Shown one piece after another: positions 5,624-32,501 of a stretch of 38,085 nt of DNA. The stretch covers positions 1 through 38,085 of the forward strand of contig JAACDM010000253.1 in assembly GCA_009936795.1 (NCBI GenBank). The letters run 5' to 3'. Both the position numbers and the translations under genes were made by a program. The notes under the pieces are model-generated. The model had not been told where the DNA came from. It made no database searches and worked only from the letters and a program-made list of their open reading frames with translations. How positions within the stretch are numbered: the first letter of the stretch is position 1; each line of letters begins with the position of its first letter. This stretch comes from Verrucomicrobiaceae bacterium. GTDB taxonomy: Bacteria > Verrucomicrobiota > Verrucomicrobiia > Verrucomicrobiales > DEV007.

Positions 5624-5712
5624 TTGGATCAGCTCTCGGGCGGTATCTTTGAGAATAACGCCCCTGATAAAGTGCCAGGTAGCTTTGTAGGGCTGTGCGC
5701 CAATTGACAATA

Positions 5713-5744
5713 AATCTCACCAAGAATACCGTCTTGGTGAGATT
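5713..5744 (+). terminator. Perfect 13-bp stem-loop, probable terminator or leader hairpin
   Basis: Arms aatctcaccaaga (5713-5725) and tcttggtgagatt (5732-5744) pair perfectly around the 6-nt loop ataccg. It lies between the small membrane protein and the giant CotH gene. The downstream sequence is only weakly T-rich (cctctgccccc), so it may be a factor-independent terminator of modest strength or a 5' leader structure. Confidence 0.6.
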
Positions 5745-5766
5745 CCTCTGCCCCCAAACTCCGCTC

Positions 5767-16688: not shown

Positions 16689-17558
16689 ATGGACCCGATT
16701 CGTCTCACTGAAACACCGGCGAACCTTGGCGAGGGACCTTGTTGGCATGAGGACGAGGGTGTGCTCTATTGGGTCGATATCCTGGGCAAGCGACTGCATC
16801 GCCACGATCCTTCAGGCAAGCTTACTCGTTATTGGCAGTTGCCGGAAATGGTTGGGACAGTAGCGCCACGCGCGTCAGGAGGCCTACTACTCGCGCTACA
16901 AAGCGGGCTCGCGTTCTTTGATCCAGAGAACGGGGAGCTCGACCGACTCCCGATCATTGACGCAAATCCACGTACTCGATTCAATGATGGCAAATGCGAT
17001 CCTCAAGGTCGGTTCTGGTTTGGCTCCATGGATATTGAGGAGAAAGAGAATCTTGGTATCCTCTATTCCATGGATCTAGATGGCAAGGTAAAGGCATGGA
17101 TCGAGAACATCGGAGTCTCGAACGGCATGACATGGTCGCCCGATGGTAAGACAATGTACTACATCGATTCTCCGACACGTCGCCTGGATACTTTCGATTT
17201 CGACTCTTCAAACGGAAGCATCACCAACCGACGCAATCTCGTCACATTCGACGAAGAGGATGGATTCCCAGATGGGATGACACGCGATAGTGAAGGCTAC
17301 CTGTGGATCGCACACTGGGCCGGAGGTTGCATTAGCAAACGATGCCCTGCCAGCGGTGAACAGCTGGCCAGAATACCCACTCTTGCCTATCAAACCAGCG
17401 CTTGCTGCTTCGGAGGTCCCGAACTAATCGATCTCTACATCACCTCCGCCCAGGTAGATTTAACAAAGAGCCAGCAAGCAACCTTCCCACAATCCGGCCA
17501 TCTGTTTAAGAAGACTCTGGAGACGCCAGGGTCCCCGACGTTTCCCTACCGTGGATAG
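16689..17558 (+). CDS. SMP-30/gluconolactonase family lactonase
   Basis: A 289-residue six-bladed beta-propeller enzyme of the SMP-30/gluconolactonase/LRE family, which hydrolyses sugar lactones to aldonic acids with one divalent metal. The expected metal and substrate residues are present: E15 in NLGEGPCWHEDEG, N99 in RFNDGKCDPQGRFWFGS, N145 in GVSNGMTWSPDGKTMYYID, and D195 in GFPDGMTRDSEGYLWIA. It starts directly after the stop of the small exported protein with no gap. Its last 53 bases overlap the convergent polymerase gene, but no truncation is evident because length is normal. No signal peptide is seen, so it is probably cytoplasmic and acts in sugar acid catabolism. Confidence 0.92.
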   Translation: MDPIRLTETPANLGEGPCWHEDEGVLYWVDILGKRLHRHDPSGKLTRYWQLPEMVGTVAPRASGGLLLALQSGLAFFDPENGELDRLPIIDANPRTRFNDGKCDPQGRFWFGSMDIEEKENLGILYSMDLDGKVKAWIENIGVSNGMTWSPDGKTMYYIDSPTRRLDTFDFDSSNGSITNRRNLVTFDEEDGFPDGMTRDSEGYLWIAHWAGGCISKRCPASGEQLARIPTLAYQTSACCFGGPELIDLYITSAQVDLTKSQQATFPQSGHLFKKTLETPGSPTFPYRG

Positions 17559-18996
17559 GTTCTCGCCGTTTCTGCCGACGAATCGTTTCCAGCTTGGAAG
17601 CCACTGCGAGCATGGCCAACCAAAGCACCGCATTCTTCGTTTGGAGTAGCACTTTCTCGATAAAACTATGCACGTACAGAGCAGTTAGCACTAATAAAAT
17701 CGCTACTAAAAAATCTCCAACCCACGTGTTTCGGTAGCGGTAGCAATGCTTCAGCGTCAGCCACAAGGTGGTGAGTATGAAGAAGAGGAAACAGGCAAAG
17801 CCAAGGTAGCCAGTTTCAGCCAACAAATACCAATACAAACTTTCTACAACGGGAGCTCGATAAAAAATCTCCTCAGAATGGTTATCACCATCGGCAGCCT
17901 CATGCTCGATCAACACTTCAACATACCGGGTCACGGGCAAACTGCAGGCAATCTGATAGTTATTCCAACCGACACCAAACACGCTATCACGAAGCATGAA
18001 AGATGCTTGACGTGCCAGTATTACACGCAGGTCTTCCGTATCAATCTCCTTATCTACAGAGGCAGCATTCTGCATAACGCTAACCCTCTCAGAAATCGTA
18101 TCTATGCTAGCATAGGTTCCGTAGCCGCCAGCCATCAAAAAGAGCAAACCCATAAAATAACTTCGCCGCGTGCGCTTTCGAGCGATGCTCAGTAATGCGA
18201 CTACGACTGACAAAACAGCAACAATCATCAATGATCCACGTGACACCGTAAGAATAGCAGAAACAGCACCGAAACAATAGCCACCAAATAGCAAGAGTGC
18301 CGTTAAAAGAGGTATTTTACGGTGAAACGACAAGACAAGGCAAGGAATCGCGCCCATGTATGCCCAAATTCCAAAGGCGTTAGAATGATCAAACGTCGCT
18401 CGGACTCGATGTGCTCCTGCTACATAGCGATCAAACAAAGCATAGGTTCCCGCAATGATTAATGCCACCGCTAGGCTACGAGCAAACCATAGAATGTCCT
18501 GTTTTGAACGAATAAACGCATGAGTAGCCAGATAGACGAGAGAAAGCAGGCTGAACTTCAGGATAGCTTCCCAAATATTCCGCGCACTAATCCAATCTCC
18601 ATCCCCCTCTAAATCGACCAGAGCACCAGGCCATGGAATTGGCAGCGTCAGCACTAATGTAAAAGCACCCGCCAAACAGAAAGCGCCATAAAAGAAAAAG
18701 CCCGGAGGCATCAACGGCAGGTCTCTACGACGCCCAAAGAACGTCGCCGCGAGTAATGTGATCGCCGCAAAAACCATAAGGGAAATCTCAAAACCTCGGG
18801 TATGCCCCGTATGATTTACCGAAAATACGGTCAGCGTGATCTGATCTGCGTGAAAGGCGGTCCCAGCAATCATCGCAAAAAAAACAGCAATCTGCCCTGG
18901 ACGAAAGTCCTTGATCAAGAACCCCAGTACCGGAGCCACCATAAGGTAGGAGACTAAACCGATAGCAATCTTTACATACTCAAGCCAGTCAGTCAT
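17506..18996 (-). CDS. O-antigen ligase/Wzy-type polysaccharide polymerase
   Basis: The 496-residue inner-membrane protein has about 11-12 helices and one long periplasmic loop between ~300 and 390. The Wzy_C/O-antigen-ligase signature region is visible as RVRATFDHSNAFGIWAYMG (~205), TVSRGSLMIVAVLS (~250) and DSVFGVGWNNYQIA (~335). These proteins join lipid-linked oligosaccharide repeats in the periplasm or ligate chains to an acceptor. Placement at the end of the leftward arm of a locus with an initiating sugar transferase, a Wzz-like protein and Wza-like proteins argues for a Wzy polymerase. The stop of the upstream double glycosyltransferase is 2 bp away, so they share a transcript. The 3' end overlaps the SMP-30 gene by 53 bp. 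Confidence 0.88.
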   Translation of the reverse strand: MTDWLEYVKIAIGLVSYLMVAPVLGFLIKDFRPGQIAVFFAMIAGTAFHADQITLTVFSVNHTGHTRGFEISLMVFAAITLLAATFFGRRRDLPLMPPGFFFYGAFCLAGAFTLVLTLPIPWPGALVDLEGDGDWISARNIWEAILKFSLLSLVYLATHAFIRSKQDILWFARSLAVALIIAGTYALFDRYVAGAHRVRATFDHSNAFGIWAYMGAIPCLVLSFHRKIPLLTALLLFGGYCFGAVSAILTVSRGSLMIVAVLSVVVALLSIARKRTRRSYFMGLLFLMAGGYGTYASIDTISERVSVMQNAASVDKEIDTEDLRVILARQASFMLRDSVFGVGWNNYQIACSLPVTRYVEVLIEHEAADGDNHSEEIFYRAPVVESLYWYLLAETGYLGFACFLFFILTTLWLTLKHCYRYRNTWVGDFLVAILLVLTALYVHSFIEKVLLQTKNAVLWLAMLAVASKLETIRRQKRREPIHGRETSGTLASPESS

Positions 18997-18998
18997 AA

Positions 18999-21374
18999 CT
19001 ATCCATTCCCCTCTCCGATCATCTCACGGTATTTCGCCAAATAAAGCGACGTGAGATACTCATAGGAATAACGCTGTTGAACAAGTTCATTGCCAGCCTC
19101 TGCCAACTTCGCAAAATCCTGACGACGTTCCTGCGCCCGCACCATGGTCTCGGCCAAATCCTCAACCGAAAGAGATTTAAACAAGAATCCGTTTTCACCA
19201 TCAACAACAAGATTCGGATCCACCACATCACTTTGTATGACTGGCGTATTGCTCGCCCAGGATTCTACCACCACCGCACCGGAATTCATGAATCGAACTG
19301 GCACGACGTGAATGTCGCTATGCCTCAACCAGCCTAAAACTTCCTCGCGTTCCACTACGTCCGTAAAGATCACAGAGTCCTCCAGACCGTTGTCTTTCAC
19401 ATAATCTGACATTTCCCTATTGAAACCTGGTTCAAAATCTCGGCGCCCTACAATAACGAGCTTAGCTTTATCGAGCTGGGGAAGTGCTTCGTCAAAAGCC
19501 TTGAGTGCGATGTCTTGTCCCTTCACATTAGAAACACGCCCCAAGCATAGAAAGATGAACGTTTCATCGTCTATATCATATTTCGCCTTTGGTGACTCGA
19601 CTGGCTCCTTATACTCATCAACAAGAACCGGCACAGGCGAGTAACTCACCCGATCCGTGTATCCCTTGATGAAGTCGATCTCTTTGTTTGAAATAGCGAA
19701 GACGTGATCATTGTGCTCCAAAGCCAATCGTTCCCTCAAGATCGGTTGATAACCATCAAGCATGTCCGTAACTTTTACAGACTCCTTGATCAACGCAGCG
19801 TAATCTCGGAAATCAAAGGATACGAGAACCGACTTCTTTCCCAATAATTTCTGAGCCCCCAAAGCGGCCAAAGCATTGTAGTGCGGCGCTGGAAAAGATT
19901 GTATCACGTCGTATCGATCACGCAGCAAATAAAAAGGAAGGAAGGGGCAGAACGTGCCCGCCAAATTTGACGGATATTGGCGGAAGGGGTTGAAGAGATT
20001 CCATAGACGCTTAACCCGAATACCTTCAATGTACTCAAGATTTTTAGAAACAATCCGCTTGGGCGTGAACACCGTGACACTACAGCCATTCTTGGCTAGA
20101 TCGCGTGCTTGAAAAAAGATATTTGTTTCTGCCCCACCGACTTCTGGAACAAAGCGATTCGACACAATTGCCAATCTGATTCGACCAGGTTGGAAGGTCG
20201 TGATTTCACTGGCCAAATTCGCAGCAACCACATCTTCGCCATAGTCCCCTTTCGCAGCCTCATAGAGATTCTCCCCCATGGAAATGCACTTCTTTTCGTC
20301 CTCTATCAGTTCGATTACACCCTTCGCATAATCTTCGGCCGAATCCCTTATGAGCAAGCAATCATCTCCCAAATCGTAACCCTCAGCTCCGAGGGTCGTG
20401 GTCACCCCAGTACGCTTAGCCTTTGCAGCTTCTAAGACTCGCACGCGTGCACCTGAGGCTTGGTGCACTGGGAATACGGTGAACAAAGAGGCCTTCACCG
20501 TGGCAAGCATATCATCGACGCCACCAAGAATGCGCACATGCTTCTCAGCGCCATGCTTGGCAATGAGTTCCTTGTAGATAGGGGTTTCGCGCCTACCTGC
20601 GACAAAGAGTTTCACACCTGAAGTCTCTAAAGTCGCCTTGATCAATGAATACACTTGATCCATGATAAACGTGAAAGCATCGATGTTAGGAAAAGAATCG
20701 AGCGCGCCGAAGAACAGAATGTTTTTCTCTTGAGAAACGCTTTCTTCCATATCCTTAAACGCAATAGCATTGGGCAAGAGCGAGAAACGAGAAGGCGCGG
20801 TTCCTCTCCAGTAGGCTTTCTCCAAAAATTTCCGGTCTTCAGGATTCGCGAGTAAAAAGAGGTAGGGATGACGGTACAGCTTCCGTTCAAACCAACGGAA
20901 CTTGAGAGACTCAAACAGAAAAAAGCGATTCTTGATCGAGCGATCCTTTTCCCAATAACCTCTAGTGAACTGAGAAAAGACAAGATCGGAATCCACAATC
21001 ACCTTCGTCTGCGGCGAGACTCTCTCACACTCGAATGCCAGTAATACTGGCACCACTGATCGGAGGAATATATAGTCATATTCCCTCTCAGCCAGCAGAT
21101 CACGGAATTGCCGCATGGTACCTTCTGAAAAATGATCAATCGACGAAGGTAGGAATGCATTCTGCCCCTTTATTGACTCAAGCACCAAGGATCGATGTTT
21201 CCCTTTTTTGTGGGCCTCGATATCATCATCCGAATCGTCCTTTCGCCGTATGACAAGCAAATCAGCATCAAAGGATTCTTGAAGCGTACGCCAAATGAAC
21301 TGGCTACGATTCATATCCCCACCTATCCGAGTGAGGAAAGTAGCGTCTATATAGAGAATGCGAGATTGAGACAT
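18999..21374 (-). CDS. Two-domain GT4 glycosyltransferase fusion
   Basis: The 791-residue product contains two complete GT-B glycosyltransferase units. The N-terminal unit (~1-390) has YIDATFLTRIGGDMNRSQF, a donor half starting at NILFFGALDSFPNIDAF, and the donor motif SGARVRVLEAAKAKRTGV (~315). The C-terminal unit (~397-791) starts RLAIVSNRFVPEVGGAETN, has IFLCLGRVSNVKGQDIALKA, and ends with GAVVVESWASNTPVIQSD, the EX7E-like region in which the first acidic residue is replaced. Each domain would transfer one sugar, so the fusion could add two consecutive residues of the repeat unit. It lies 7 bp after the phosphatase gene and 2 bp before the polymerase gene, so it belongs to one leftward operon. 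Confidence 0.9.
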   Translation of the reverse strand: MSQSRILYIDATFLTRIGGDMNRSQFIWRTLQESFDADLLVIRRKDDSDDDIEAHKKGKHRSLVLESIKGQNAFLPSSIDHFSEGTMRQFRDLLAEREYDYIFLRSVVPVLLAFECERVSPQTKVIVDSDLVFSQFTRGYWEKDRSIKNRFFLFESLKFRWFERKLYRHPYLFLLANPEDRKFLEKAYWRGTAPSRFSLLPNAIAFKDMEESVSQEKNILFFGALDSFPNIDAFTFIMDQVYSLIKATLETSGVKLFVAGRRETPIYKELIAKHGAEKHVRILGGVDDMLATVKASLFTVFPVHQASGARVRVLEAAKAKRTGVTTTLGAEGYDLGDDCLLIRDSAEDYAKGVIELIEDEKKCISMGENLYEAAKGDYGEDVVAANLASEITTFQPGRIRLAIVSNRFVPEVGGAETNIFFQARDLAKNGCSVTVFTPKRIVSKNLEYIEGIRVKRLWNLFNPFRQYPSNLAGTFCPFLPFYLLRDRYDVIQSFPAPHYNALAALGAQKLLGKKSVLVSFDFRDYAALIKESVKVTDMLDGYQPILRERLALEHNDHVFAISNKEIDFIKGYTDRVSYSPVPVLVDEYKEPVESPKAKYDIDDETFIFLCLGRVSNVKGQDIALKAFDEALPQLDKAKLVIVGRRDFEPGFNREMSDYVKDNGLEDSVIFTDVVEREEVLGWLRHSDIHVVPVRFMNSGAVVVESWASNTPVIQSDVVDPNLVVDGENGFLFKSLSVEDLAETMVRAQERRQDFAKLAEAGNELVQQRYSYEYLTSLYLAKYREMIGEGNG

Positions 21375-21381
21375 GGCTGAT

Positions 21382-23115
21382 CTAAATAGTAGAGGAAGTC
21401 TCGGGAGCGAGGGCCGAGCGGTTCCACCAAAGAAGCGTTTGATCGTCTAGACTAGTACGATCTTCCACGGACCGATTGATCCGCTCTTGGAAACTATTCC
21501 AGAATGTATCATAGCCAAAAGGCAAAGTGGCTTTAGCAAAGTCTACAAAATTTTCCCAGCCCCAAACGTTCTCCCCTTCAAACCACTCAAATACATCGTC
21601 GCTCACTATTAGAATGGTGTCTACAGAATAGAGTTCTCGTCGCTCAGAAACATAATGGCAATCTGCGAAGATACCCAGCGGAGGGCCAGTTGCGTGCTGC
21701 TGACAAACTAGCTCTCCACCACTAAGAAGGAGGGCAGGACAATGTCCCGCATTAATCACTTCAAGCGTCGTGCGCGCCGCATCGACCTTCACAATCGAAC
21801 GAGTGATGAAGCGGGTGTCTCCACCCAACCAATCATGCAAAGTGTTATTGAATGATTCCAAAAACTCCTCCAAATCGAAGTCGGATTGCAAACGAGAATG
21901 CAACGCCGTCCGAAACATAAGTGCAAAGATGGCTGCTGTTGCCCCCTTGCCCATCACATCAATGATGACCATGATGAGATTTCCCTCACGATCATAGCAA
22001 GATTCTTGAAAGTCGCCCGCGACCATACTGTGGGCAGCACTTCGGTGGACAATTTCCCAGTAGGGAGACGGAGGCAATTCACGGGGATGAAGTAACTCGC
22101 GCTGAATCCTGGTAGCAAATTCGGTCTCACGACGAAACTGCTCGTCATGATGACACTCCTTGCGCAGGCGATAGTGGTCAATTGCTATACCAAATAGATC
22201 CGCAAAGACACGCGTCTGGCCAGACTCTGTCATACTTAATCCTCCTTCTTTGCCTACCTCGACTAGCAGACAACCTAGATTCATCTCATTAGCAACAATG
22301 GGATGGCAGCATCCATCGGCCCAGTCGACACCGCGCCCGCCGCGCAGAACTTGCAGAACCACTTCCGGAGCATCGGCTATTGAGCGAAGGTAAGTATGTC
22401 CATCAAAGGCATCACTCAGTTCGCAATGAAGGCGTTCAGACAAAATGACAAAGACTCGCTTTGGCCTTGCATGAAGGCAGCCCACCAAATGTTCAATGCC
22501 CTTCTCTACGAACGTACCGGGGGCATCCTGATGTAGAATAGCTGCCGCCAACTGATAGAATGCAGAAAGCTTACTAACAGAGAGCCCGAAGGACTCGAAC
22601 GGCGCCGCATGCTTAGACAACTCAGCCTGTAATGATGCCGCTAGCCGTTTGCGAACAACACAACAATAACCCGACTCTGAACGCCAATGTTCCCATGAAT
22701 CACTGAAGTTGTGCACGATGTAAAGGCCCCGCCCACGTTGCTCTGTTAAGTCGTCTGGCAACCGAGGGCTGCGCGTGAATCGGTCGGGAGGTCCATTGCC
22801 TTCATCTTTCACCCTGAGCTCGAGTTGACCTTCAATGACGGCCCAGGACACGACAATCTCCCGCGATGGATCAGAGATTGAACCGTGCGAGATTGCATTG
22901 TTGACCAGCTCTAAAACAGTTATGTACCACCGCCAGCGATGCTTCTCACCGAGCCCCATCTCCGTGAGTGAGAGCTCAAGGCACGCCCAAAGATCTTGGA
23001 AGTGATTGAGATGAGCAGGGAAACTAACGCGTTCTGACTGGTAGGGTTCTACCGCCAGGTTAGAGCCTCGCGACAAACTCGCAGAGCGCGCTGCACTGAC
23101 GTTATCTAAAATCAT
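21382..23115 (-). CDS. RsbW-like histidine-kinase-fold domain + GAF-like region + PP2C (SpoIIE) phosphatase
   Basis: The 577-residue regulator begins at ATG 23115, 10 bp after the preceding gene. The frame stays open to 23406, but that extra sequence is a shadow of the overlapping gene. Order of domains: an anti-sigma-type ATPase (~31-160) with N box LELVNNAISHG (69-78 region), G1 box VKDEGNGPP (D104) and G2 box RGRGLYIV; a middle region that looks like a GAF sensor (~175-315); a linker helix (TRIQRELLHP); and a PP2C/SpoIIE phosphatase (~340-565) with AGDFQES (D368), IDVMGKG (D386), NAGHCPALL, GPPLGIF, and acidic pairs at 506/507 and 557/558 (LIVSDD, SLDDQTLL). In partner switching, RsbW-type kinases phosphorylate STAS proteins and SpoIIE-type phosphatases reverse it. 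Two STAS-type genes lie in the divergent arm of this locus. Confidence 0.9.
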   Translation of the reverse strand: MILDNVSAARSASLSRGSNLAVEPYQSERVSFPAHLNHFQDLWACLELSLTEMGLGEKHRWRWYITVLELVNNAISHGSISDPSREIVVSWAVIEGQLELRVKDEGNGPPDRFTRSPRLPDDLTEQRGRGLYIVHNFSDSWEHWRSESGYCCVVRKRLAASLQAELSKHAAPFESFGLSVSKLSAFYQLAAAILHQDAPGTFVEKGIEHLVGCLHARPKRVFVILSERLHCELSDAFDGHTYLRSIADAPEVVLQVLRGGRGVDWADGCCHPIVANEMNLGCLLVEVGKEGGLSMTESGQTRVFADLFGIAIDHYRLRKECHHDEQFRRETEFATRIQRELLHPRELPPSPYWEIVHRSAAHSMVAGDFQESCYDREGNLIMVIIDVMGKGATAAIFALMFRTALHSRLQSDFDLEEFLESFNNTLHDWLGGDTRFITRSIVKVDAARTTLEVINAGHCPALLLSGGELVCQQHATGPPLGIFADCHYVSERRELYSVDTILIVSDDVFEWFEGENVWGWENFVDFAKATLPFGYDTFWNSFQERINRSVEDRTSLDDQTLLWWNRSALAPETSSTI

Positions 23116-23125
23116 TTTAGCCACG

Positions 23126-24316
23126 TTACTTGCGAGCCCTCTGTAAGAGCTTTGCAAGATAACGACCACATTCCTTTTTGATTTGCCCAGGCTGCGACAG
23201 AATTTGCTCCATCGCCATATCTGACTCCCGCGGATCGTCTGCAGAATGGACTCCAAGAACATCGGCCATTGAAATCGCTCCCACCGGAGCCTGGGCGATA
23301 GCTCGCCGGTCACGGGAAGACAGCGACTCAACCTGGGCGGCAGTACGAGGGAGCAGCCCGTAAAGAAAGATGTTTCCGAGTGCCGCCTGAAAAAACAAGG
23401 GCGCACGGCAAATCAGAAAATCTTCTGAGTCCAACTGACGCAACTTCATGCCCTGATGGGACTGCATTTCCTGGAAAGGGGCACGCCCGACAACCCGCAA
23501 ACCGTGCATTCTCACAATCTTTAACCAGAGACGAAACGCCACAAAGCGCTCTCGCCAAGATGGCCGCTTTCGGGTCACTTTGAGATCCCCTGCTATGAAG
23601 GGCTCCACTCGATCAACGGCTCCACGATACTTACAATTAAGAAGCCGACCACCTTCAAGATAGCACTGATCCAACTCAGTGTGCCGCCCCATGAAAGTAT
23701 GATCTGCAACCTTAGAGTTCGCTACCCGATTCTGCCCATTCAGCACACAACCATCGCCAATGCTAACATAAGGCCCAATTTCACTTTCAGGCCCAACTCG
23801 CACGTGGTCACCTATCCAAACAGGCTCATGGATTACGGCCGAGGGATGAATCTGGCACCAGCGCCCCACCCCATTCGTGGAAAGGCTCAATTCGCTATCT
23901 TCTGAAGCCCGCTTCTCTAACCATTTCCGCTCTAGCTCAAACCAATGATCCATCAGGCGCCATCCATCACTCAGATCGGCAGGTGCTGAAAACCCAGGCA
24001 GTGTGTTAGCGATTTTACAGCCAGGGTGTTCGGCCTCGCCATTATCCTGAATAATGTCCCATTCGATCGGCCAAAGTGTAGCTTTCTCCATCGCCTTGGT
24101 CACAACGACAGGCCGATCTGAACAGTAGATTAGAAGCCTTGTGTATCCCTCATTAACCGCATAGTCGAGCCAATGATAGAGTAGAGGTAAATCGCCTACC
24201 TTCCAAAGTGAGAAGGGCTCATCCAAACGAATCGCATCCGCTTGAGAAAGGTCAGGAACACGAAGATGAAGAGTGTCATCTGACTTCTTGCGAGCGTGAT
24301 GCGTAAGTGATACCAT
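23126..24316 (-). CDS. Hexapeptide-repeat (left-handed beta-helix) nucleotidyltransferase-like protein
   Basis: The 396-residue product resembles the NDP-sugar pyrophosphorylase/acyltransferase class. An N-terminal alpha-beta region (~30-140) looks like a degenerate nucleotidyltransferase fold (LPLLYHWLDYAVNEGYTRLL, then DIIQDNGEAEH) without the usual GGxGTRL loop. A left-handed beta-helix follows (~153-235), recognisable from repeats such as IHPSAVIHEPVWIGDHVRVG and EIGPYVSIGDGCVLNGQNRV. A C-terminal ~150 residues are unassigned. It lies between the initiating sugar transferase gene (36 bp upstream) and the phosphatase gene (10 bp downstream). It may supply or decorate a sugar of the repeat unit. 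Loss of the nucleotide-binding loop makes pyrophosphorylase activity doubtful, so a structural or acyltransferase-like role is possible. Confidence 0.78.
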   Translation of the reverse strand: MVSLTHHARKKSDDTLHLRVPDLSQADAIRLDEPFSLWKVGDLPLLYHWLDYAVNEGYTRLLIYCSDRPVVVTKAMEKATLWPIEWDIIQDNGEAEHPGCKIANTLPGFSAPADLSDGWRLMDHWFELERKWLEKRASEDSELSLSTNGVGRWCQIHPSAVIHEPVWIGDHVRVGPESEIGPYVSIGDGCVLNGQNRVANSKVADHTFMGRHTELDQCYLEGGRLLNCKYRGAVDRVEPFIAGDLKVTRKRPSWRERFVAFRLWLKIVRMHGLRVVGRAPFQEMQSHQGMKLRQLDSEDFLICRAPLFFQAALGNIFLYGLLPRTAAQVESLSSRDRRAIAQAPVGAISMADVLGVHSADDPRESDMAMEQILSQPGQIKKECGRYLAKLLQRARK

Positions 24317-24352
24317 AACAATGATGATTCTTGGGTTGCTGCCCGTTGGCCA

Positions 24353-25096
24353 CTAGTAGGCACCTCGCCCAAGAAGAACGGCAGGCACCGTGAGCAACAG
24401 AATCCTCAAATTTGCCCAAAACCCCTCTGACCGTATGTATTCCAGATCCAATCGTACTTGGCCTTCAAAATCAATATCCCCTCGACCACCAATTTGCCAA
24501 AGACCGGTGATTCCTGGCTTCACGACCAATCGACGCAACTCGCGGGCCCGATACTCGATGACTTCGCCAGGAACTGCCGGACGAGGACCAACAAGGGTCA
24601 TGTCCCCCTTCAAAACGTTCCAAAACTGCGGAATCTCATCTACCGAATACTGCCTGATCCATCTTCCCAGTCGGGTGATGCGAGGATCATTCTTCATCTT
24701 AAACGTCGCCGAACGAACATGCTGATTGTGCCTCGAAAGCTGGAGCTTGCGGGCCTCCGCGTTCATATGCATGGACCGAATCTTAAACATCTTAAAGATC
24801 TTACCATCCTTACCCACGCGATTCTGACGGAAGAAAATTGGGCCACCGTCTTCGAACTTGATAAGCACGGCCACCACAGCAAGAACCGGAAAAAAAACGA
24901 GAAGAGCACCCGCACTCCCAATCACATCGACAGTTCTTTTCAAAAGCATCGAACACCTCAAGGACCCACGCCAAAGCATGACCTTCATCCTAAGCCTGCG
25001 GTTCCAACGTTCCTGCTTTTGAGGACAGACGGCATGAGACCAGTGTTCGGCCACTAATTTCCCTAAATCGGTCTTTGCGTTACCCTGAATAGCCAT
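24353..25096 (-). CDS. Polyprenyl-phosphate sugar-1-phosphate transferase (WcaJ/PglC-like)
   Basis: The 247-residue enzyme starts polysaccharide synthesis by moving a sugar-1-phosphate from a UDP-sugar onto undecaprenyl phosphate at the inner membrane. It has the short, PglC-like form: one membrane helix (DVIGSAGALLVFFPVLAVVA) then the catalytic domain. Conserved segments are PIFFRQNRVGKDGKIFKMFK, RLGRWIRQYSVDEIPQFWNV (the catalytic Asp-Glu pair), GDMTLVGPRPAVPGE, and KPGITGLWQIGGRGDIDFE. It is the first gene of the leftward arm and faces the AT-rich divergent promoter region. The N-terminal ~45 residues (MAIQGNAKTDLGKLVAEHWS) are less typical, so a slightly later start is possible. Confidence 0.94.
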   Translation of the reverse strand: MAIQGNAKTDLGKLVAEHWSHAVCPQKQERWNRRLRMKVMLWRGSLRCSMLLKRTVDVIGSAGALLVFFPVLAVVAVLIKFEDGGPIFFRQNRVGKDGKIFKMFKIRSMHMNAEARKLQLSRHNQHVRSATFKMKNDPRITRLGRWIRQYSVDEIPQFWNVLKGDMTLVGPRPAVPGEVIEYRARELRRLVVKPGITGLWQIGGRGDIDFEGQVRLDLEYIRSEGFWANLRILLLTVPAVLLGRGAY

Positions 25097-25180
25097 ACAA
25101 TTTCATTGTTATCAGATGTAATTATTAAAATCAAGATTTTTATATCATATAATAGCAGAAACTATAGATTCTAGAAGGCT
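25097..25180. promoter_or_regulatory. AT-rich divergent promoter region of the polysaccharide locus
   Basis: An AT-rich stretch separates the two arms. On the plus strand TATAAT at 25148-25153 is a perfect -10 box, with TTAAAA at 25125-25130 as a 17-bp-spaced partial -35. On the minus strand TTGATT followed about 17 bp later by TAACAAT is a weaker candidate for the leftward operon. Transcription from both sides would express initiator, polymerase, export proteins and regulators together. Confidence 0.55.
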
Positions 25181-25357
25181 ATGGACCTAGGACTGGGGAG
25201 TAAGGCAATTCTAGCGCTCCTACCTCCCTCGATTAACGTCTATTCAAATCGCATGACTTTCAAGCCAGTTCGCAGCGATTCGTCGCATTCTAGTCATAGA
25301 AAGACCTCATTAATCCCCAGCGCCAGACGGAACAGTGCCCTGTCGCTCCCACGCAAT

Positions 25358-25663
25358 ATGATCTCCGCAGAAAATCTGGGTAGCAGCCTCATTCTCAAGT
25401 TCGACACTGACCGATTCGACGCGACCAACACGCAAATGTTCATCGAAGCCGTTGAGGGAATATCCCTGGAGTCCCCAAATTCCATTATATTACATTTCGA
25501 GAAGGTGAAGCTCATTGACAGCAGCGCCGTCGGCGTCCTGCTAGATTTCTACAAGTCTCTACCACCTGAGAGCCGCTCAATTTCAATATTGAGACCCCAG
25601 CCAGCAGTCGCATCCATGATCGAGTTCCTTAGGCTTCATCACGTATTTCAGATCAAGAGTTAA
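25358..25663 (+). CDS. STAS-domain anti-sigma factor antagonist-like protein
   Basis: A 101-residue single-domain STAS protein of the SpoIIAA/RsbV type. It shows LILKFDTDRFDATNTQMF, then the strand-turn LHFEKVKLIDSSAVGVLLDF (D54-S55-S56), whose serine is the usual phosphorylation site, then SISILRPQPAVASMIEFL. The frame is open upstream to ATG 25181, which lies just behind the TATAAT and an AGAAGG. I chose 25358 because it gives a complete ordinary STAS domain, and the upstream 59 residues are Ser/Arg-rich and not family-like. The longer form cannot be excluded. The CpsF-type gene begins 5 bp after its stop. It is the likely partner of the kinase/phosphatase fusion encoded at 21382-23115. Confidence 0.82.
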   Translation: MISAENLGSSLILKFDTDRFDATNTQMFIEAVEGISLESPNSIILHFEKVKLIDSSAVGVLLDFYKSLPPESRSISILRPQPAVASMIEFLRLHHVFQIKS

Positions 25664-25668
25664 GTAGC

Positions 25669-26544
25669 ATGTGGAGTTTGGAAACAGAGCCACCAGTCTC
25701 GTTGATTGTCGGGCTGCCGTTCCATCACACAACGATGGATGAAGCATTGCGCGACTACACCTCCATCATGCGAGGAAACAGTTCGGCCTATTGGATCACG
25801 GCGAACGTCGACTTCGCTACCCGAGCTCCCACCGATCCCATTCTCAAAGACCTTGTCTTTCACGCAGATCGAGTATTTTGCGATGGACTTCCACTGGTCT
25901 GGCTTTCAAAGCTTTTCGGACGATCACTTCCTGAACGAGTAGCTGGTTCAGACTTGGTGCCCAAGCTACTCGAGACATCCGCCCGCGAAGGCCACCGTGT
26001 CTACTTCCTCGGAAGTGATGAGGAGACTCTCAGCAAAGCCAGTCAGATTGCGACTGAGCGTTACCCAGATTTGCAGATCGCGGGGCATCACTCACCGCCC
26101 TTTGCTCACGTTCATGAATGGGACAACGAACACATCATCGCTAACATCCGAGCAACCAAGGCAGATCTCGTCCTGGTCGCAGTCGGGAGCCCCAAGCAGG
26201 AACGCTGGATCTCCGGATACTTCGATCGAACTGGAGCAAAGCTGGCGATCGGCATTGGAGCTAGTCTCGACTTCATTGCGGGTAGCCAGACTCGAGCACC
26301 TCGCTGGGTACAACTAGTAGGTTTTGAATGGCTCTGGCGGATGCTCTCAAACCCAAAGCGGCTCGCAAAACGTTACGCATCCAATTTCTTATATCTCGGA
26401 GCAGCCGCTTTCACGCAATGGCGCGCCTACAAGAAGAGTTTCCCCGTTGAGCAGCAATCCGAACGTCAACCAATCGATGGAGTCATTGATTTAACCTCGA
26501 TGAACAAACTCACTCCCGCCGCACTAGCAGGCTGCGTAACCTAG
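25669..26544 (+). CDS. WecB/TagA/CpsF family glycosyltransferase (GT26)
   Basis: A 291-residue GT26 transferase that usually adds N-acetylmannosamine, glucose or a related sugar to a lipid-linked sugar on the cytoplasmic membrane. Family hallmarks in order: YWITANVDFATRAP (~45), DRVFCDGLPLVWLSKLFG (catalytic Asp, ~70), RSLPERVAGSDLVPKLLE, RVYFLGSDEETLSKAS, LVLVAVGSPKQERWI, and the C-terminal membrane-contact segment APRWVQLVGFEWLWRMLSNP. A further ~35 residues follow the usual end (EQQSERQPIDGVIDLTSMNK). It starts 5 bp after the STAS gene, so they are co-expressed, and it likely adds the second sugar after the initiator. It stops at TAG 26542-26544, and the same frame continues open into the second STAS-like gene. 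Confidence 0.94.
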   Translation: MWSLETEPPVSLIVGLPFHHTTMDEALRDYTSIMRGNSSAYWITANVDFATRAPTDPILKDLVFHADRVFCDGLPLVWLSKLFGRSLPERVAGSDLVPKLLETSAREGHRVYFLGSDEETLSKASQIATERYPDLQIAGHHSPPFAHVHEWDNEHIIANIRATKADLVLVAVGSPKQERWISGYFDRTGAKLAIGIGASLDFIAGSQTRAPRWVQLVGFEWLWRMLSNPKRLAKRYASNFLYLGAAAFTQWRAYKKSFPVEQQSERQPIDGVIDLTSMNKLTPAALAGCVT

Positions 26545-26570
26545 ATCAGACAGGCAAGGCGAGCTGATAG

Positions 26571-26580
26571 CCCCCCCCCC
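26571..26580 (+). repeat. Homopolymeric C10 tract
   Basis: Ten consecutive cytosines lie between the CpsF-type stop and the second STAS-like ORF, in the same open frame as both. Such tracts slip during replication. If translation of the STAS-like gene starts at ATG 26632 the tract is untranslated. Its length could still affect messenger structure or coupling. Confidence 0.9.
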
Positions 26581-26631
26581 AGTGTCCTGGCCTCAAAAGA
26601 GGTCAGCCAAGAGCTGAAAAAACTAGGGTTA

Positions 26632-26955
26632 ATGCCGCCATTGAATAGCGCCGAACGACAAGAGGATACGCCATCAATCGAACTGCTAAAGGCCGCAAAC
26701 GGATGCCAAGTGAAGGCTCCAAGATCGTGGAGGTCAGATATATGGGACCCTGCTCTTGAAAGCGGCGTTCCCGTTCAGATTGATCTTAAGCAAACCAGTT
26801 TCATTGACTATCCCACACTGCTGAGGCTGAACGAACTGAAGCTGAAGCTGGAAAAGCAGCAACTTTCTCTTAAGATGGTATCGGTCATGCCGGAGCTTGA
26901 GGGGCTCATGGGAGCGCTTGGATTCTCGGAACTTCTCGATGGGTCGCGGGCATGA
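26632..26955 (+). CDS. Degenerate STAS-like protein
   Basis: This 107-residue product has the STAS pattern of a core strand followed by a helix. VPVQIDLKQTSFIDYPTLLR corresponds to the strand-turn-helix that in STAS proteins carries Asp-Ser-Ser-Gly, here Asp-Tyr-Pro-Thr (D59-T62). LSLKMVSVMPELEGLMGALG matches the last strand and helix. The phosphorylatable serine is therefore missing, although T62 is close. The N-terminal third (NSAERQEDTPSIELLKAANG) fits a STAS first strand only loosely. The frame is continuous upstream to the CpsF stop, so the start could be earlier, but ATG 26632 is the first usual start. It may act as a decoy or constitutive antagonist of the RsbW-like domain, which is an inference. 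Confidence 0.68.
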   Translation: MPPLNSAERQEDTPSIELLKAANGCQVKAPRSWRSDIWDPALESGVPVQIDLKQTSFIDYPTLLRLNELKLKLEKQQLSLKMVSVMPELEGLMGALGFSELLDGSRA

Positions 26956-27101
26956 GAAATTGCGTATGAGAACTCTTGCAATCTCGAAATACAACTGCAA
27001 TAACTACCATACTCAAACCGATTTCTATTCTTCTGGAGAAATAATTTTAGCGATGTTTTGGAATAAACGAACTTACCTGAAGGGAGATCCTTCTTTCTAA
27101 T

Positions 27102-29318
27102 ATGAAACCAGTATCACCTTTCCGCTTTCCCCTTGCCTTCGATCCACTGCGGCTTCTCTTGGCCCTTCGCGATCATTGGATAGCGCTTATTCTCCTAACT
27201 GCGTTAGGCATCGCTGGCGGAGGAGCCTTGGGTTATAAACTCTTCAATAAGAACACCTATTCGGTATCTTCAATACTACGAAAAACAAAGGACGCCGAAG
27301 GCTTTAGCCTCTTCGGACCAGATGGCTACAAGCCAGCCATGCTAAAAGATCAGGCCTTAGAAGAGATTGCCATGGGGCATTCTGTCCTAACAAAGCTTGG
27401 TGAACAATTTGACCCACCCGAGACTGTGGAACAGTTGGAAAAACGTCTCAACGTCCGCTATGACACTCAACAAAAGCTTTTCTACTTAAAGGCGAAAGCC
27501 CCCACAGAAAAGCTCGCCATCGTCATTGCCAACCGCTGGTCCGATCTTGTAGTCGAACACTCCAAAGGGCTCATGCGTGTGTTTGCCTCGAAGGACGCCC
27601 AGACACTAACCGAAGATTTAAAGCGCCTTGATGAAAAAATAATCCCTATCAACAAGCGTATTAGCGAGTTGTCGGAGGAAGAAGCCATCATCGACGACGA
27701 TGCCGCGTATGCCTCTCTTTCCGGTGAGATTCAAGCACTGAGGAAAGAACTGCGGAACTACGAGATTCAGGAGAGTACGTTCCACCTGCGCTACATGCAG
27801 ACGATCGAAGCCTTGATTGAGAATCATCCGCTCAAAACGCAAATGCAGCTCCAGCGCGATCGTCTCAATGCCTTATTGGCAGAAGGTCAAACCGAAGAAT
27901 CGCCTCATGTCGAGAAGCTAAGAGCCACGATCGCAACTCTCAGGAGACAAGCAGAACAACAGCTAGGCACAGAACTCACTGTTGAACAAATCCGTAGCAT
28001 GAGTTCTGTCGAAAGTGCCCAGCTTCACTTTGAACGTTACCTCAGCCTTAAGGAAGAACAGTTCCAATATGAGGAGGGCATTCGAATGGTGAAGGAGGAG
28101 CTCGTTAAGCGAGAAACGCAGATGAAAGACTTGCCTCTTGTTGCTTCAAAGTTTCGTGAACTCGACGATGAACGCGCCCGCCTACTTGCAAATCAGAGCG
28201 CTTTCGATACCCAGCTAACACAGGCTATGACCTACGCAGGTCCAGATTCCAAGGGGTACCTTGAGCCTCTTGAAGCTGCCGATTATGGCATGGCAGAACT
28301 TTCGACCGGCAAATACAAGACGGTTGCAACCGGACTTTTGCTCACCGGACTCATCTTTGGCACAGTCCTCCTTTGGGCTATCCTTCGGGAACTTAGGCGA
28401 CCTGAACTCCGCACCATGCTACAAGGCGCAATCACAACACGGGCAACGCCAACCTTGGGACTCTTGCAGAAAGACGAGATCGAAGATGAAGCCGCGGTGA
28501 GAGAATTCTGGCTCAGTCACGTGGCTAAGAAAGCAGCGGGCGGTCGACGTATTCTCTTCCCAATTGTCGGCGAGCTAAAGTCCGAATTCAGGTTCTGGAA
28601 GACACTCTTACATACCATCAAACAAGATAACGCCCTCGTGCTCTTCATTGATGTGGCGCAGGATCCAGTGCCTGAGTCGTTTCTCAAAGCCAACCTCCTT
28701 CCGTTCAGCCCGTCGGGCAACGTAGGCCCAACAGCTTCGACATTCCACCAAGGAGGTGGCACCGGCTCAGCAGATCTTTGGAAGGTCGGCACATCATTTC
28801 AGGAAGGCGGAAACTCTGTTATCAGCTCCTCCGCTAGCACCGCTCTCATGGAGCCGCCCATGTCGAGCAGCGCCCTCTCTACCAACCTAATGCCCAACGA
28901 TCAGCCAATTATCCCACACGCTAGCGACGTGTCACAATCTGCCCTCTATGTTAGTGCCGCTGACTACTCGGCCGAGAAACTTGCACGTCTACTGCAAGAC
29001 TTGCCACCGCATTACCACGTGATCTGTAGATGGGCGATTGGACCAACATCATCCCTTGCCGCTATTTCAAAAGACTTTGATCAGCACTTCCTGCTCAACT
29101 CCCCAGTGACGACTCAAAAGAAAGTAGCTTCCTCACAAAGCCGCATCTTCCGCCGAATCTTGGGCACTCCCTCTGGAATACTTTTCCTCAATGAACCCGT
29201 CAAAGGCATCTTCACGAATCTGATCCACCAGATTGAAAGCCGCTACTTCGATTGGCGCTTGAATAAGAGCCCCAAGCAACGTCCCCAAGACAGCAATTCA
29301 GATGACAACGATCTATAG
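27102..29318 (+). CDS. Wzz/GumC-type polysaccharide co-polymerase with degenerate tyrosine-kinase domain
   Basis: The 738-residue protein has the layout of chain-length regulators: a cytosolic start, helix 1 (IALILLTALGIAGGGALGYK, ~25-45), a long periplasmic coiled-coil region (~110-370), helix 2 (VATGLLLTGLIFGTVLLWAI, ~407-427), then a ~300-residue cytosolic domain. That domain aligns in order with BY-kinases: a GGRRILFPIVGELKSEFRFW stretch in place of the P-loop (GELKS at 490-494, where the usual form is GEGKS), LVLFIDVAQDP in place of Walker A', and GSADLWKVGTSF where GLSDVLxG is expected. The key glycine before Lys-Ser is lost, and no tyrosine-rich tail is present. I infer a catalytically dead scaffold that still regulates polymerisation and export. 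A weak GGGAG lies upstream of ATG 27102. It is followed by two Wza-like genes. Confidence 0.88.
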   Translation: MKPVSPFRFPLAFDPLRLLLALRDHWIALILLTALGIAGGGALGYKLFNKNTYSVSSILRKTKDAEGFSLFGPDGYKPAMLKDQALEEIAMGHSVLTKLGEQFDPPETVEQLEKRLNVRYDTQQKLFYLKAKAPTEKLAIVIANRWSDLVVEHSKGLMRVFASKDAQTLTEDLKRLDEKIIPINKRISELSEEEAIIDDDAAYASLSGEIQALRKELRNYEIQESTFHLRYMQTIEALIENHPLKTQMQLQRDRLNALLAEGQTEESPHVEKLRATIATLRRQAEQQLGTELTVEQIRSMSSVESAQLHFERYLSLKEEQFQYEEGIRMVKEELVKRETQMKDLPLVASKFRELDDERARLLANQSAFDTQLTQAMTYAGPDSKGYLEPLEAADYGMAELSTGKYKTVATGLLLTGLIFGTVLLWAILRELRRPELRTMLQGAITTRATPTLGLLQKDEIEDEAAVREFWLSHVAKKAAGGRRILFPIVGELKSEFRFWKTLLHTIKQDNALVLFIDVAQDPVPESFLKANLLPFSPSGNVGPTASTFHQGGGTGSADLWKVGTSFQEGGNSVISSSASTALMEPPMSSSALSTNLMPNDQPIIPHASDVSQSALYVSAADYSAEKLARLLQDLPPHYHVICRWAIGPTSSLAAISKDFDQHFLLNSPVTTQKKVASSQSRIFRRILGTPSGILFLNEPVKGIFTNLIHQIESRYFDWRLNKSPKQRPQDSNSDDNDL

Positions 29319-29345
29319 CTCGCTCTAACACCAACCACCTGACTC

Positions 29346-30290
29346 ATGATGAACCGCGTAATTCGCCATCTTCTCTGGTCAACACTCGTTACGATCCTAC
29401 TGGCCACATCCTTTAACGTGTCTGCCCAGCGACCGATGTACAAATTGGGCCCGGGTGACAACGTGACCATGTATGTCATAGGACGCCCCGAAACCAAGAC
29501 GGAGGACATTCCTATCGCGCCTGACGGCACCGTGACTTATCTCGACGTTCGCGTGAGCATTGCCGGGCTGACCATTCCGGAAGCAGGAAAAGCTGTCGAG
29601 ACCGCTCTTCAGAAGCTCGATACCAACGCCAAGGTCGTCCTCTCGCCTGGTGCATTAGGTAGCAAGAGCTACACCATTCTTGGAAGTGTTCCGAAGCAGG
29701 GGCGTTTCAACATAGAACGCTCAATATCTTTGTTGGAAGCAATCGCCAAGGCAGGTGGGCTCTCGAAAGAAGATACCCAAGCGGGCGCAGTTAATGCCCG
29801 GGTAAACCTCAATCAATCTTTCATTGTTCGCCAGGGGCGCAAGCTGGCGGTGGACTTCACCAAGCTTTACTCAGACGGAGACACAAGTCAGAACATCGGC
29901 CTCCAGCATCAAGATCACATCTACATAGCCTCAAATCTCAGCGATGAATACTACGTCTTTGGCTACGTGAAAAACCAGGGCATGCACCGTATGCGCCCGG
30001 GCCTTGGAGTCGTCGGCGCGATTACCGAGCAAGCCGGATTCGCACAGGAAGCTTGGAAAGGTAAAGTCTTGTTAGTCCGCGGTAAGATGGACAAGCCCGA
30101 AACAATCGCGGTCGACATTGCGGCAGTGCTCAAAGCTGAGCAAGCGGATGTCCCCATAAAGCCAGGAGACATGCTCTACATTCACCGTAAGCCTTGGTAT
30201 CATGCCGAGACTATCTTAGACCGCGCGTTCACTGCATTTCTCCGTTCAGCAGCTGCCACAAAAGTGAATCTCGAAACCGGTATCGAATAA
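29346..30290 (+). CDS. Wza-type polysaccharide export protein (PES + SLBB), Sec signal
   Basis: The 314-residue protein is exported by a signal peptide (VIRHLLWSTLVTILLATSFN, cleaved near VSAQ). It contains the Poly_export domain (YKLGPGDNVTMYVIG, TVTYLDVRVSIAGLTIPEAG) and two SLBB ligand-binding units (SYTILGSVPKQGRFNIERSI and YYVFGYVKNQGMHRMRPGLG). The ending KPGDMLYIHRKPWYHAETIL is mirrored in the next protein. Such proteins form the periplasmic and outer-membrane channel for polysaccharide. It lacks a lipobox, so it may be periplasmic and act with the lipoprotein encoded downstream. ATG 29346 and 29349 are both possible starts. It follows the co-polymerase by 27 bp. Confidence 0.9.
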   Translation: MMNRVIRHLLWSTLVTILLATSFNVSAQRPMYKLGPGDNVTMYVIGRPETKTEDIPIAPDGTVTYLDVRVSIAGLTIPEAGKAVETALQKLDTNAKVVLSPGALGSKSYTILGSVPKQGRFNIERSISLLEAIAKAGGLSKEDTQAGAVNARVNLNQSFIVRQGRKLAVDFTKLYSDGDTSQNIGLQHQDHIYIASNLSDEYYVFGYVKNQGMHRMRPGLGVVGAITEQAGFAQEAWKGKVLLVRGKMDKPETIAVDIAAVLKAEQADVPIKPGDMLYIHRKPWYHAETILDRAFTAFLRSAAATKVNLETGIE

Positions 30291-30328
30291 ATTTAATAGA
30301 GCCCCAAAAGTTAGCCATCGACTCCGTC

Positions 30329-31420
30329 ATGAAACCAATCGTGCATTTCTGCCTGCTCATTTTCTTGGGCTCTCTCGTCTCCTGCGACCCCATACCTGGA
30401 AAGAACGGCTCCAATCGCTTCGATCCCAGAGCACATGCTTCTCAAGTAGATTCCTCGGGAGCCATGACGACCTCCGCCAATTTCAAAAAGTTTAATGGAA
30501 CTGGCAGTATATCCAAGAGCATGCTGCGTCCCAAGACGGACGACTATCGATTGGGTCAAGGAGACAACCTTACGATCGAGCTGACGGATAAACCTGAGAC
30601 TCGTCAGGTCACCCGCGTCATGCCAGATGGACTGGTTTACTTCGACCTCGCACAAGGCGTTCCCGCAGAAGGAAAGACTATTGAAGAACTCACGGCTGCA
30701 ATCACCAAGAAGATGCAAGTCTTTGAACAGCGGCCACTGGTCCGCGTAACCTTGGACGAGATTACAAGCCGTAATTATTTCATCTTGGGTCAGGTGAATA
30801 CCCCCGGCACTTATCCCCTCACCCGTCCATTGACTGTTCTCGATGCGATCTCGGAAGCTGGTGGCCTGGCTAGTGCGCTCAATACTGATCTCGAAAGTCT
30901 GCCTGACCTATCCAGCGCCTACATAGTACGTAGGAACAAGATGCTCCCCGTCGATTGTCAAAGCTTGGTCGAAGGTGGAGATACCTCACAAAACATTTAT
31001 CTTGAGCCTGACGACTACATTTATATTCCCTCAACTCAGGACGCCAAGGTATACTTGCTAGGGTCTGTTACTGACCCAAAGTCCATCACTTATAAGGGCG
31101 GAACTACTTTGGTATCAGCTCTCGCCCGCGCTGGCGGCCCAACACCAAAAGCTTACCGTCAGAAAACGATTATCCTGAGGGGTAGCCTAACGAAACCTGA
31201 ATATGCAATCGTCGACTTTAATCAGGTTCTCAATGGCGGGGCTACTGATGTGCCTCTTGAGCCCGGCGACATTGTCTGGATGCCACGTTCTCCGTGGGAA
31301 AAAGCTGAGGAGTACCTCGTGCAAGTAGTCAGCGCAGCAGCTCAATCCGTCGCCGTTTATCAAGGCGGCCGCTTAGTCGATCCGGATGCAGCGCAGCCTG
31401 CGACAATCGGGATTCAGTAA
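30329..31420 (+). CDS. Wza-type polysaccharide export lipoprotein
   Basis: The 363-residue lipoprotein starts at ATG 30329 with KPIVHFCLLIFLGSLVSC, a clear lipobox (LVSC). The longer frame from 30194 overlaps the preceding gene and is not coding. It contains a Poly_export domain (YRLGQGDNLTIELTDKPETR, GLVYFDLAQGVPAEGKTIEE) and SLBB units (YFILGQVNTPGTYPLTRPL and KVYLLGSVTDPKSITYKGG). The last segment (EPGDIVWMPRSPWEKAEEYL) repeats the design of the first export protein, which points to a tandem duplication. It probably forms the outer-membrane export channel that works with the co-polymerase. The stop is 19 bp from the convergent RfaE2-PurN gene, so the locus ends here. Confidence 0.93.
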   Translation: MKPIVHFCLLIFLGSLVSCDPIPGKNGSNRFDPRAHASQVDSSGAMTTSANFKKFNGTGSISKSMLRPKTDDYRLGQGDNLTIELTDKPETRQVTRVMPDGLVYFDLAQGVPAEGKTIEELTAAITKKMQVFEQRPLVRVTLDEITSRNYFILGQVNTPGTYPLTRPLTVLDAISEAGGLASALNTDLESLPDLSSAYIVRRNKMLPVDCQSLVEGGDTSQNIYLEPDDYIYIPSTQDAKVYLLGSVTDPKSITYKGGTTLVSALARAGGPTPKAYRQKTIILRGSLTKPEYAIVDFNQVLNGGATDVPLEPGDIVWMPRSPWEKAEEYLVQVVSAAAQSVAVYQGGRLVDPDAAQPATIGIQ

Positions 31421-31439: not shown

Positions 31440-32501
31440 TCAGAGAGTCGCAGCATACTCCCTGATGACCCGAGGGTAGAGCTTTCTTTCTGCGACTTTG
31501 ATTCTCTCCAGCAGATCATCTGGCGTGTCATCTTTCCGTATCGGAACCGTTTCCTGACCAAGAATAGGCCCGGTATCCAGTCCCTCATCCACGAGATGAA
31601 TCGTGGATCCGGTCTTCGTTTCGCCTGCACCCAAGGCCTGCTTCCATGCGCATAGCCCTGGGTAGTTTGGGAGTAACGACGGATGGACGTTGAGTACTCG
31701 CTTCGGAAAAGCTTCTAATACAGGCGCCTTGAGACGACGCATGAAACCGGCAAGAATGACCAGCTCCACGGAAGCCGCCTTTAGACGATCTCGTATCTCT
31801 TTCTGTGCTGGTTCGCCGAGCCTCGTTTTGTAGGGCCCAGGATCCACAGACACGGCAGGCACGCAACGGTCTTCGGCAACTTTTAAAATTCTGGCATCAG
31901 GTTGATCAGAAAGCACCAACGCAACTTCGGTGTCCGGAAGACGTCCATCGTCGATGGCGTGAAAGATTCCTTCTAAGCTCGAACCTTGCCCAGATCCTAG
32001 TACTCCAAGTTGAAGGGGCTTCGATTCGCCATCATAAAGCTTTGAAAGGGTCTCCGTCGTCGACTTACCAGCAACCAGGGAAAGAATCTCTATTGAAGCC
32101 CCTACACGGTCTAAAGCCTGCCGTTCTTCTTCATTGAGAGATTCAGGAGTATAATCCCCTCCTTTAGCATAAACGTGTGGGGCGATAGCCTCAATGGCAC
32201 TAGTCGCACGCTCTTCTGCGAAGACGACCACGTAGTCCACAGCACTTAGGCCGAGTAGGACCTCCGCCCGATCTTCTAATCTATTGAGCGGCCGCCTTGG
32301 TCCTTTAATAGAAGCGACCGAGGCATCTGAATTAAGCGCCACACAAAGGGCATCCCCCGAAGTTCGGGCCTCATTCAGATAGCGAACATGACCAACGTGG
32401 AGCAAATCAAAACAGCCATTGGTGAAAACCAATCGCTTACCGTCGGCTTGAAGCCGATCCCGCTCCTTTCGAGCAGCTTCCCAGGAGACGACGGTACTCA
32501 T
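31440..32501 (-). CDS. RfaE2-like nucleotidyltransferase fused to PurN formyltransferase
   Basis: The 353-residue product is a two-enzyme fusion. Residues 1-~150 match the cytidylyltransferase-like domain of ADP-heptose synthase (RfaE2/HldE C-terminal part), with FTNGCFDLLHVGHVRYLNEA carrying the HxGH nucleotide motif, and ALNSDASVASIKGPRRPLN. Residues ~163-353 match phosphoribosylglycinamide formyltransferase: LGVLGSGQGSSLEGI, VILAGFMRRLKAPVLEAFP, NVHPSLLPNYPG (catalytic N271 and H273) and GLDTGPILGQ (D309). PurN carries out the third step of purine synthesis, using 10-formyltetrahydrofolate. The two activities are not in one known pathway, so the fusion may simply reflect co-expression. ATG 32501 lies 12 bp after the D,D-carboxypeptidase stop, in one minus-strand operon. 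Confidence 0.93.
   Translation of the reverse strand: MSTVVSWEAARKERDRLQADGKRLVFTNGCFDLLHVGHVRYLNEARTSGDALCVALNSDASVASIKGPRRPLNRLEDRAEVLLGLSAVDYVVVFAEERATSAIEAIAPHVYAKGGDYTPESLNEEERQALDRVGASIEILSLVAGKSTTETLSKLYDGESKPLQLGVLGSGQGSSLEGIFHAIDDGRLPDTEVALVLSDQPDARILKVAEDRCVPAVSVDPGPYKTRLGEPAQKEIRDRLKAASVELVILAGFMRRLKAPVLEAFPKRVLNVHPSLLPNYPGLCAWKQALGAGETKTGSTIHLVDEGLDTGPILGQETVPIRKDDTPDDLLERIKVAERKLYPRVIREYAATL

Follow-up and report, generated by a model that had tools for sequence, protein, structure and literature searches.

In Vibrio fischeri, the phosphorylation state of SypA, a STAS protein, is controlled by the kinase-receiver-phosphatase SypE. In its unphosphorylated form SypA promotes the formation of polymer and biofilm at a level below transcription, downstream of SypE and also in its absence (PMC10120452; PMC8256260). 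The target of SypA is described there as not known. Comparable parts are found in the same setting in the DNA analysed here, a 38,085-nucleotide contig (JAACDM010000253.1; "the window") from the 6.6 Mb draft genome of a Verrucomicrobiaceae bacterium. Positions 17506 to 31420 of the window hold a bidirectional polysaccharide locus that includes a fused kinase/phosphatase, here termed KP, and a free STAS protein, STAS1. Because of these comparable parts the SypE/SypA logic is the best guess for the locus. By analogy, a sigma-independent phospho-switch of that kind is probably built into the locus and would act on polymer assembly at its first steps.

The genes of the locus, as assigned by Pfam and NCBIfam searches of the open reading frames (ORFs) of the window, are listed below.

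17506-18996, minus strand: Wzy_C polymerase/ligase (PF04932, E 2e-9), with an orthologue in the same-genus locus L155
18999-21374, minus strand: tandem GT4 glycosyltransferase, two GT4 stretches in a single ORF
21382-23115, minus strand: KP, an RsbW/SpoIIAB-type HATPase, a middle region and a SpoIIE-type PP2C phosphatase (PF13581, PF07228)
23126-24316, minus strand: nucleotidyltransferase-like, hexapeptide and degenerate phosphoglycosyltransferase-like protein (Hexa; PF00132 and predicted structure)
24353-25096, minus strand: initiating phosphoglycosyl transferase (PGT), Bac_transf (PF02397, E 6e-65)
25358-25663, plus strand: STAS1, free STAS with a phosphorylatable serine in a DSS motif (PF01740, E 6e-11)
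25669-26544, plus strand: GT26 (WecG/TagA/CpsF; PF03808, E 1e-60), whose tail appears from alignment to be a degenerate first STAS region
26542-26544, plus strand: in-frame TAG between GT26 and STAS2, AAG in G002 and sense in G001
26632-26955, plus strand: STAS2, serine-less domain, C-terminal part of a GT26-STAS fusion (PF01740, weak; fusion intact in G001)
27102-29318, plus strand: polysaccharide co-polymerase-like protein, without a Pfam match, weak TIGR03007, syntenic in relatives
29346-30290, plus strand: polysaccharide export protein OPX1 (PF02563/SLBB)
30329-31420, plus strand: polysaccharide export protein OPX2 (PF02563/SLBB), start taken as the ATG at 30329

From the centre outwards, the minus-strand arm runs from PGT through the 23126-24316 gene and KP to the tandem GT4 and Wzy_C, and the plus-strand arm from STAS1 through GT26 and STAS2 to the co-polymerase-like gene and the two export proteins. 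The searches bear out the gene inventory of a preliminary description of this DNA, with two corrections needed. The genes that it listed are real, but it omitted 23126-24316, which belongs to the best-conserved genes of the unit described below.

KP is a single ORF with its best start at 23115, an N-terminal HATPase_c_2 domain (E 3e-15) and a C-terminal SpoIIE PP2C domain (E 1e-30). The catalytic residues are kept in the HATPase half (N-box E69/N73, G106/G108, G128/G130) and in the PP2C half (G367-D368, D386, D506, D557-D558), and are invariant in five aligned relatives. In profile comparisons with solved structures, the first half is nearest to SpoIIAB/RsbW and the second half to Rv1364c/SpoIIE. 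The middle region has a GAF match in one relative (L130), and no receiver (REC) domain was found in the window KP with Pfam. STAS1 has the motif IDSSAVG, with the serine present, and DSS or DST is present in the STAS1 orthologues that were found. The ratio of nonsynonymous to synonymous substitution rates (dN/dS) for STAS1 is 0.06 between the window and G002, a genome of the same genus. The serine is kept in G002 and in a further genome of the genus, G001, where KP is broken and absent, respectively; persistence of the serine without a working KP is as expected of a downstream effector.

Scanning genome contigs with KP yielded 18 named loci, every one of them in Verrucomicrobiota. The conserved unit consists of a free STAS with its serine kept, divergent from PGT, which is followed by a 23126-type gene, KP and a stand-alone receiver. 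The order PGT, 23126-type gene, KP, receiver is present in 14 of the 18 loci, from Verrucomicrobiales to Coraliomargarita and Cerasicoccus, and the divergent STAS1/PGT arrangement is conserved in relatives; that regulators in both arms tie their dose to that of the assembly genes, as the preliminary description has it, is a conjecture. A divergent free DSS STAS lies within 8 kb in 12 loci; in three more genomes, where larger surroundings were read, the free STAS is farther off and adjoins a GT26-STAS gene. The receiver is directly downstream of KP in 17 of 17 loci with sequence there, and the window is the exception. No receiver orthologue was found elsewhere in the window genome, where the matches are to generic receivers (best partial match 42%). 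In L044, L048 and others, histidine kinase genes stand between KP and the 23126-type gene, comparable to the sensor kinase input of SypE; across several loci, histidine kinase or receiver genes occupy this place. In genomes of another class of the phylum (L122, L138), PGT, a free STAS and GT26-STAS-STAS, some with a 23126-like gene, adjoin a REC-PP2C-HATPase fusion, whose domain order differs from that of KP. The KP of L050 (8001-9664; L050/L034, G023) is split in two frames, possibly by a frameshift or an assembly error. The tie between a partner-switching pair and polysaccharide genes, as first proposed for this locus alone, is thus a linkage that recurs across Verrucomicrobiota.

The second correction concerns STAS2. 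The locus had been described as having two STAS proteins, one of them without the phosphorylatable serine. The serine difference holds (STAS2 has the motif FIDYPTL and, at 23 bits, only just passes the Pfam cut-off of 22.6), but STAS2 is a piece of a GT26 fusion and not a protein of its own. Both are in the same frame, and the gap between them is a single TAG (26542-26544) plus 29 codons. The GT26 ORF of G001 runs unbroken through the FIDYPTL STAS domain (429 amino acids); this divergent STAS is unscored by Pfam and was detected by a profile built in this analysis. In G002 the TAG position is AAG, but two indels farther on break the GT26-STAS frame. In alignment, the window GT26 tail, with the TAG inside, resembles a degenerate first STAS, which suggests that this is what the tail is. 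STAS2 is still constrained (dN/dS 0.15, window against G002). A role for STAS2 as an independent serine-less antagonist or regulator was rejected, since GT26 and STAS2 share a reading frame and relatives carry the two in one protein. Also ruled out was slippage at a run of 10 C (26571-26580), in the GT26-STAS linker just before STAS2, as a phase-variable fusion device: in the window the frames already match, with the TAG as the only break, and G002 has not retained the run.

The split in the window is to be set against intact GT26-STAS proteins in G001, L041, L043, L054 and others. The protein of Luteolibacter pohnpeiensis (L043) is a GT26-STAS-STAS, with PF03808 and two PF01740 stretches (E 1e-25), and that of L041 (Opitutales) is a GT4-GT26-STAS-STAS. 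In the predicted structure of the L043 protein, a model of low overall confidence, the first half resembles TagA/TarA (template modelling score to target 0.77) and the second half SpoIIAA/RsbV/RsbS. A literature search of limited coverage found no paper that pairs GT26/WecG with STAS. Three loci from genomes of the same family (L157, L161, L162) have a PGT with a long N-terminal part, a short 23126-like gene and a GT26 with a STAS-like tail without Asp-Ser; they may represent another lineage of this arrangement in which the STAS is degenerate.

Among 387 other sampled genomes of the phylum, KP is found in 15 and GT26-STAS or GT26-STAS-STAS in 24. Both occur together in six, always on one contig and within 33 kb (Fisher p 1e-4, kinship not corrected). 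For distribution outside Verrucomicrobiota the check was against plasmid records, in which no full-length KP match was found; GT26-STAS was not seen among the plasmid-record matches listed, the best being a Planctomyces GT26 annotated as a HAD-IIIA hydrolase.

The 23126-24316 protein may have a role beside PGT. The Asp-Glu (DE) dyad of PGT is invariant in 14 sequences. In the structure model of the 23126-24316 protein (mean predicted local distance difference test score, pLDDT, 77.5), residues 14-240 resemble GMPPB-like sugar nucleotidyltransferases with hexapeptide repeats, and residues 242-394 resemble the initiating transferases WbaP and PglC (Z 13.1 and 10.8). Profile comparison with the neighbouring PGT gives a weak match (probability 3.6%), in which residues other than Asp-Glu stand at the dyad positions; by structure the resemblance is stronger. 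Because of the weak profile match and the loss of the dyad in the alignment, the protein may be a non-catalytic partner.

From these parts a mechanism can be proposed. The HATPase half of KP would phosphorylate STAS1 at the serine of the DSS motif, and the PP2C half would strip the phosphate from it. In relatives, the neighbouring receiver and histidine kinases would set the balance of kinase and phosphatase. Unphosphorylated STAS1 would be the effector that promotes polymer production, a direction taken from SypA, and its target would lie among the first lipid-linked sugar steps, either PGT with its 23126-24316 partner, or GT26, or both. On the enzyme, the candidate docking site for the switch is the fused STAS domain or pair of domains. 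TagA has a C-terminal appendage that is needed for catalysis and membrane association (PMC6493773). Since GT26 is governed by this appendage, directly before the fused STAS, binding at the fused STAS region could set membrane association or dimerisation of GT26.

Several observations weigh against this proposal. G001 has the whole polysaccharide locus including both STAS regions without KP, which speaks against strict coupling, and no comparable RsbW-type kinase was found elsewhere in G001. The STAS1 of G001, at 48% identity, is among the less conserved proteins of its locus. Because the serine is missing from the GT26 STAS in this genus and several others, the GT26 STAS is not always a substrate. 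The L043 model has a pLDDT of 61. STAS-KP-receiver sets with no PGT or 23126-type gene detected within 8 kb are present in L039, L042 and L046, and in several GT26-STAS loci no kinase was detected within about 8 kb. In G018 the polysaccharide locus is syntenic, with STAS and kinase undetected there, and a STAS-kinase-receiver set is elsewhere. The gene order proposed for checking in relatives is recovered in part: the unit order is present in the 14 loci, but the G001 locus is without the kinase, and in the G018 locus neither kinase nor STAS was detected.

KP is decaying in this genus. The G002 KP has an in-frame stop at codon 91 and its homology is lost soon after; the G002 contig ends at KP, and the loss of the kinase may be recent. 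In the KP tree, polysaccharide-linked and stand-alone forms are mixed, with at least two changes, and the window KP is on a long branch. The switch is simplified in the genus, with no receiver beside KP, an intact KP in only one of three locus-bearing genomes, and the serine of the GT26 STAS lost. These features, with GT26-STAS broken by the TAG in the window and by indels in G002, would also fit a module that is a relic in this genus, with STAS1 unregulated or re-used, which would be compatible with the phospho-switch in relatives. We consider this rather unlikely: the window KP is a full ORF with all checked catalytic residues in place, purifying selection acts on both STAS1 and STAS2, and some of the KP and GT26-STAS lesions could be metagenome assembly errors.

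A canonical anti-sigma circuit in trans, in which the KP HATPase holds an unlinked sigma factor, STAS1 frees it and the polysaccharide genes belong to its regulon, is more doubtful still. The HATPase belongs to the family of RsbW and SpoIIAB and the STAS proteins to that of RsbV and SpoIIAA, and many sigma factors are present elsewhere in the genome. However no SigB/F/G match above cut-off was found in the window genome, and among the matches listed there is no sigma-70 region 2 on the window contig and no sigma factor within about 28 kb of KP in 11 genomes, the nearest sigma-70 region 2 being about 29 kb away (weak matches excluded). STAS domains are also fused to a glycosyltransferase. The anti-sigma role is disfavoured most strongly because STAS1 and its serine persist where KP is broken or absent, although the end of the G002 contig at KP, a possibly recent loss and the lower conservation of the G001 STAS1 than of most of its locus qualify this argument. 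Action on assembly rather than an ordinary sigma-B circuit, as the preliminary description had suggested, is the better reading, because the linkage recurs across the phylum with no sigma factor listed nearby. Least probable is a general switch (e.g., of a c-di-GMP or surface-attachment programme, HsbR/HsbA-like) with the polysaccharide genes as frequent neighbours only, as the sets away from such genes in L039, L042 and L046 might indicate, given that kinases of two architectures recur beside PGT and the 23126-type gene and that STAS is fused to GT26.

Three other ORFs of the window lie outside this locus. On the minus strand, 31440-32501 (353 amino acids) joins a cytidylyltransferase-like domain (PF01467) to a formyltransferase N domain (PF00551), which seems an unusual combination, and the product could be a nucleotide-sugar formylation enzyme. 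Also on the minus strand, 33417-35084 (555 amino acids) has a Planctomycete-type cytochrome PSCyt1, leucine-rich repeats and a LamG-like domain. On the plus strand, 5695-12474 is an ORF of 2259 amino acids.

With less assurance than for the phospho-switch itself, we tentatively propose a class of partner switches with a glycosyltransferase output, in which the free STAS and KP would trade partners with the GT26-fused STAS and switch polymer synthesis at the enzyme. If so, surface-sugar production would be switched directly at the enzyme and not via gene expression, and in a widespread phylum partner switching would reach beyond transcription, to the post-translational control of cell-surface polymer synthesis. 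It would also hint at the kind of target of the well-studied orphan STAS effector SypA; the GT26-fused STAS beside a free STAS and KP makes a direct enzyme target testable.

The kinase, STAS and phosphatase families are those of RsbW/RsbV/RsbU and SpoIIAB/SpoIIAA/SpoIIE, but here there is no linked sigma factor, kinase and phosphatase are one chain, and the linked genes encode polysaccharide enzymes. In Nostoc, HmpU/V/W (hormogonium motility, polysaccharide) also tie a STAS switch to polysaccharide or surface behaviour, and the HsbR/HsbA-type REC-PP2C-kinase systems are STAS switches tied to surface behaviour; the REC-PP2C-HATPase fusion of L122 and L138 presumably has the HsbR-like domain order. 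We know of no STAS fused to a glycosyltransferase in the Hmp and HsbR/HsbA systems. GT26 shares the catalytic domain fold and conserved C-terminal appendage of TagA/TarA/WecG, but unlike these its relatives here bear one or two C-terminal STAS domains. As in SypE/SypA (syp locus; Rbd in V. vulnificus), an N-terminal HATPase and a C-terminal PP2C are fused in one protein, and a free STAS with a conserved serine, proposed as the downstream effector, is inside a polysaccharide locus with no sigma factor. Histidine kinase/receiver input is also shared, here as genes beside KP in relatives. The receiver is the central domain of SypE, whereas here the middle region is GAF-like, relatives encode the receiver in a gene of its own, and the window KP has none beside it. 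Unlike syp, there is a second STAS fused to or split from GT26, and a 23126-type protein; neither is mentioned for syp in the available portions of the papers, and Vibrio was not searched. The likeness to SypE drawn here is one of domain make-up and setting, and KP is compared with SypE in its probable way of working and is not classed as SypE.

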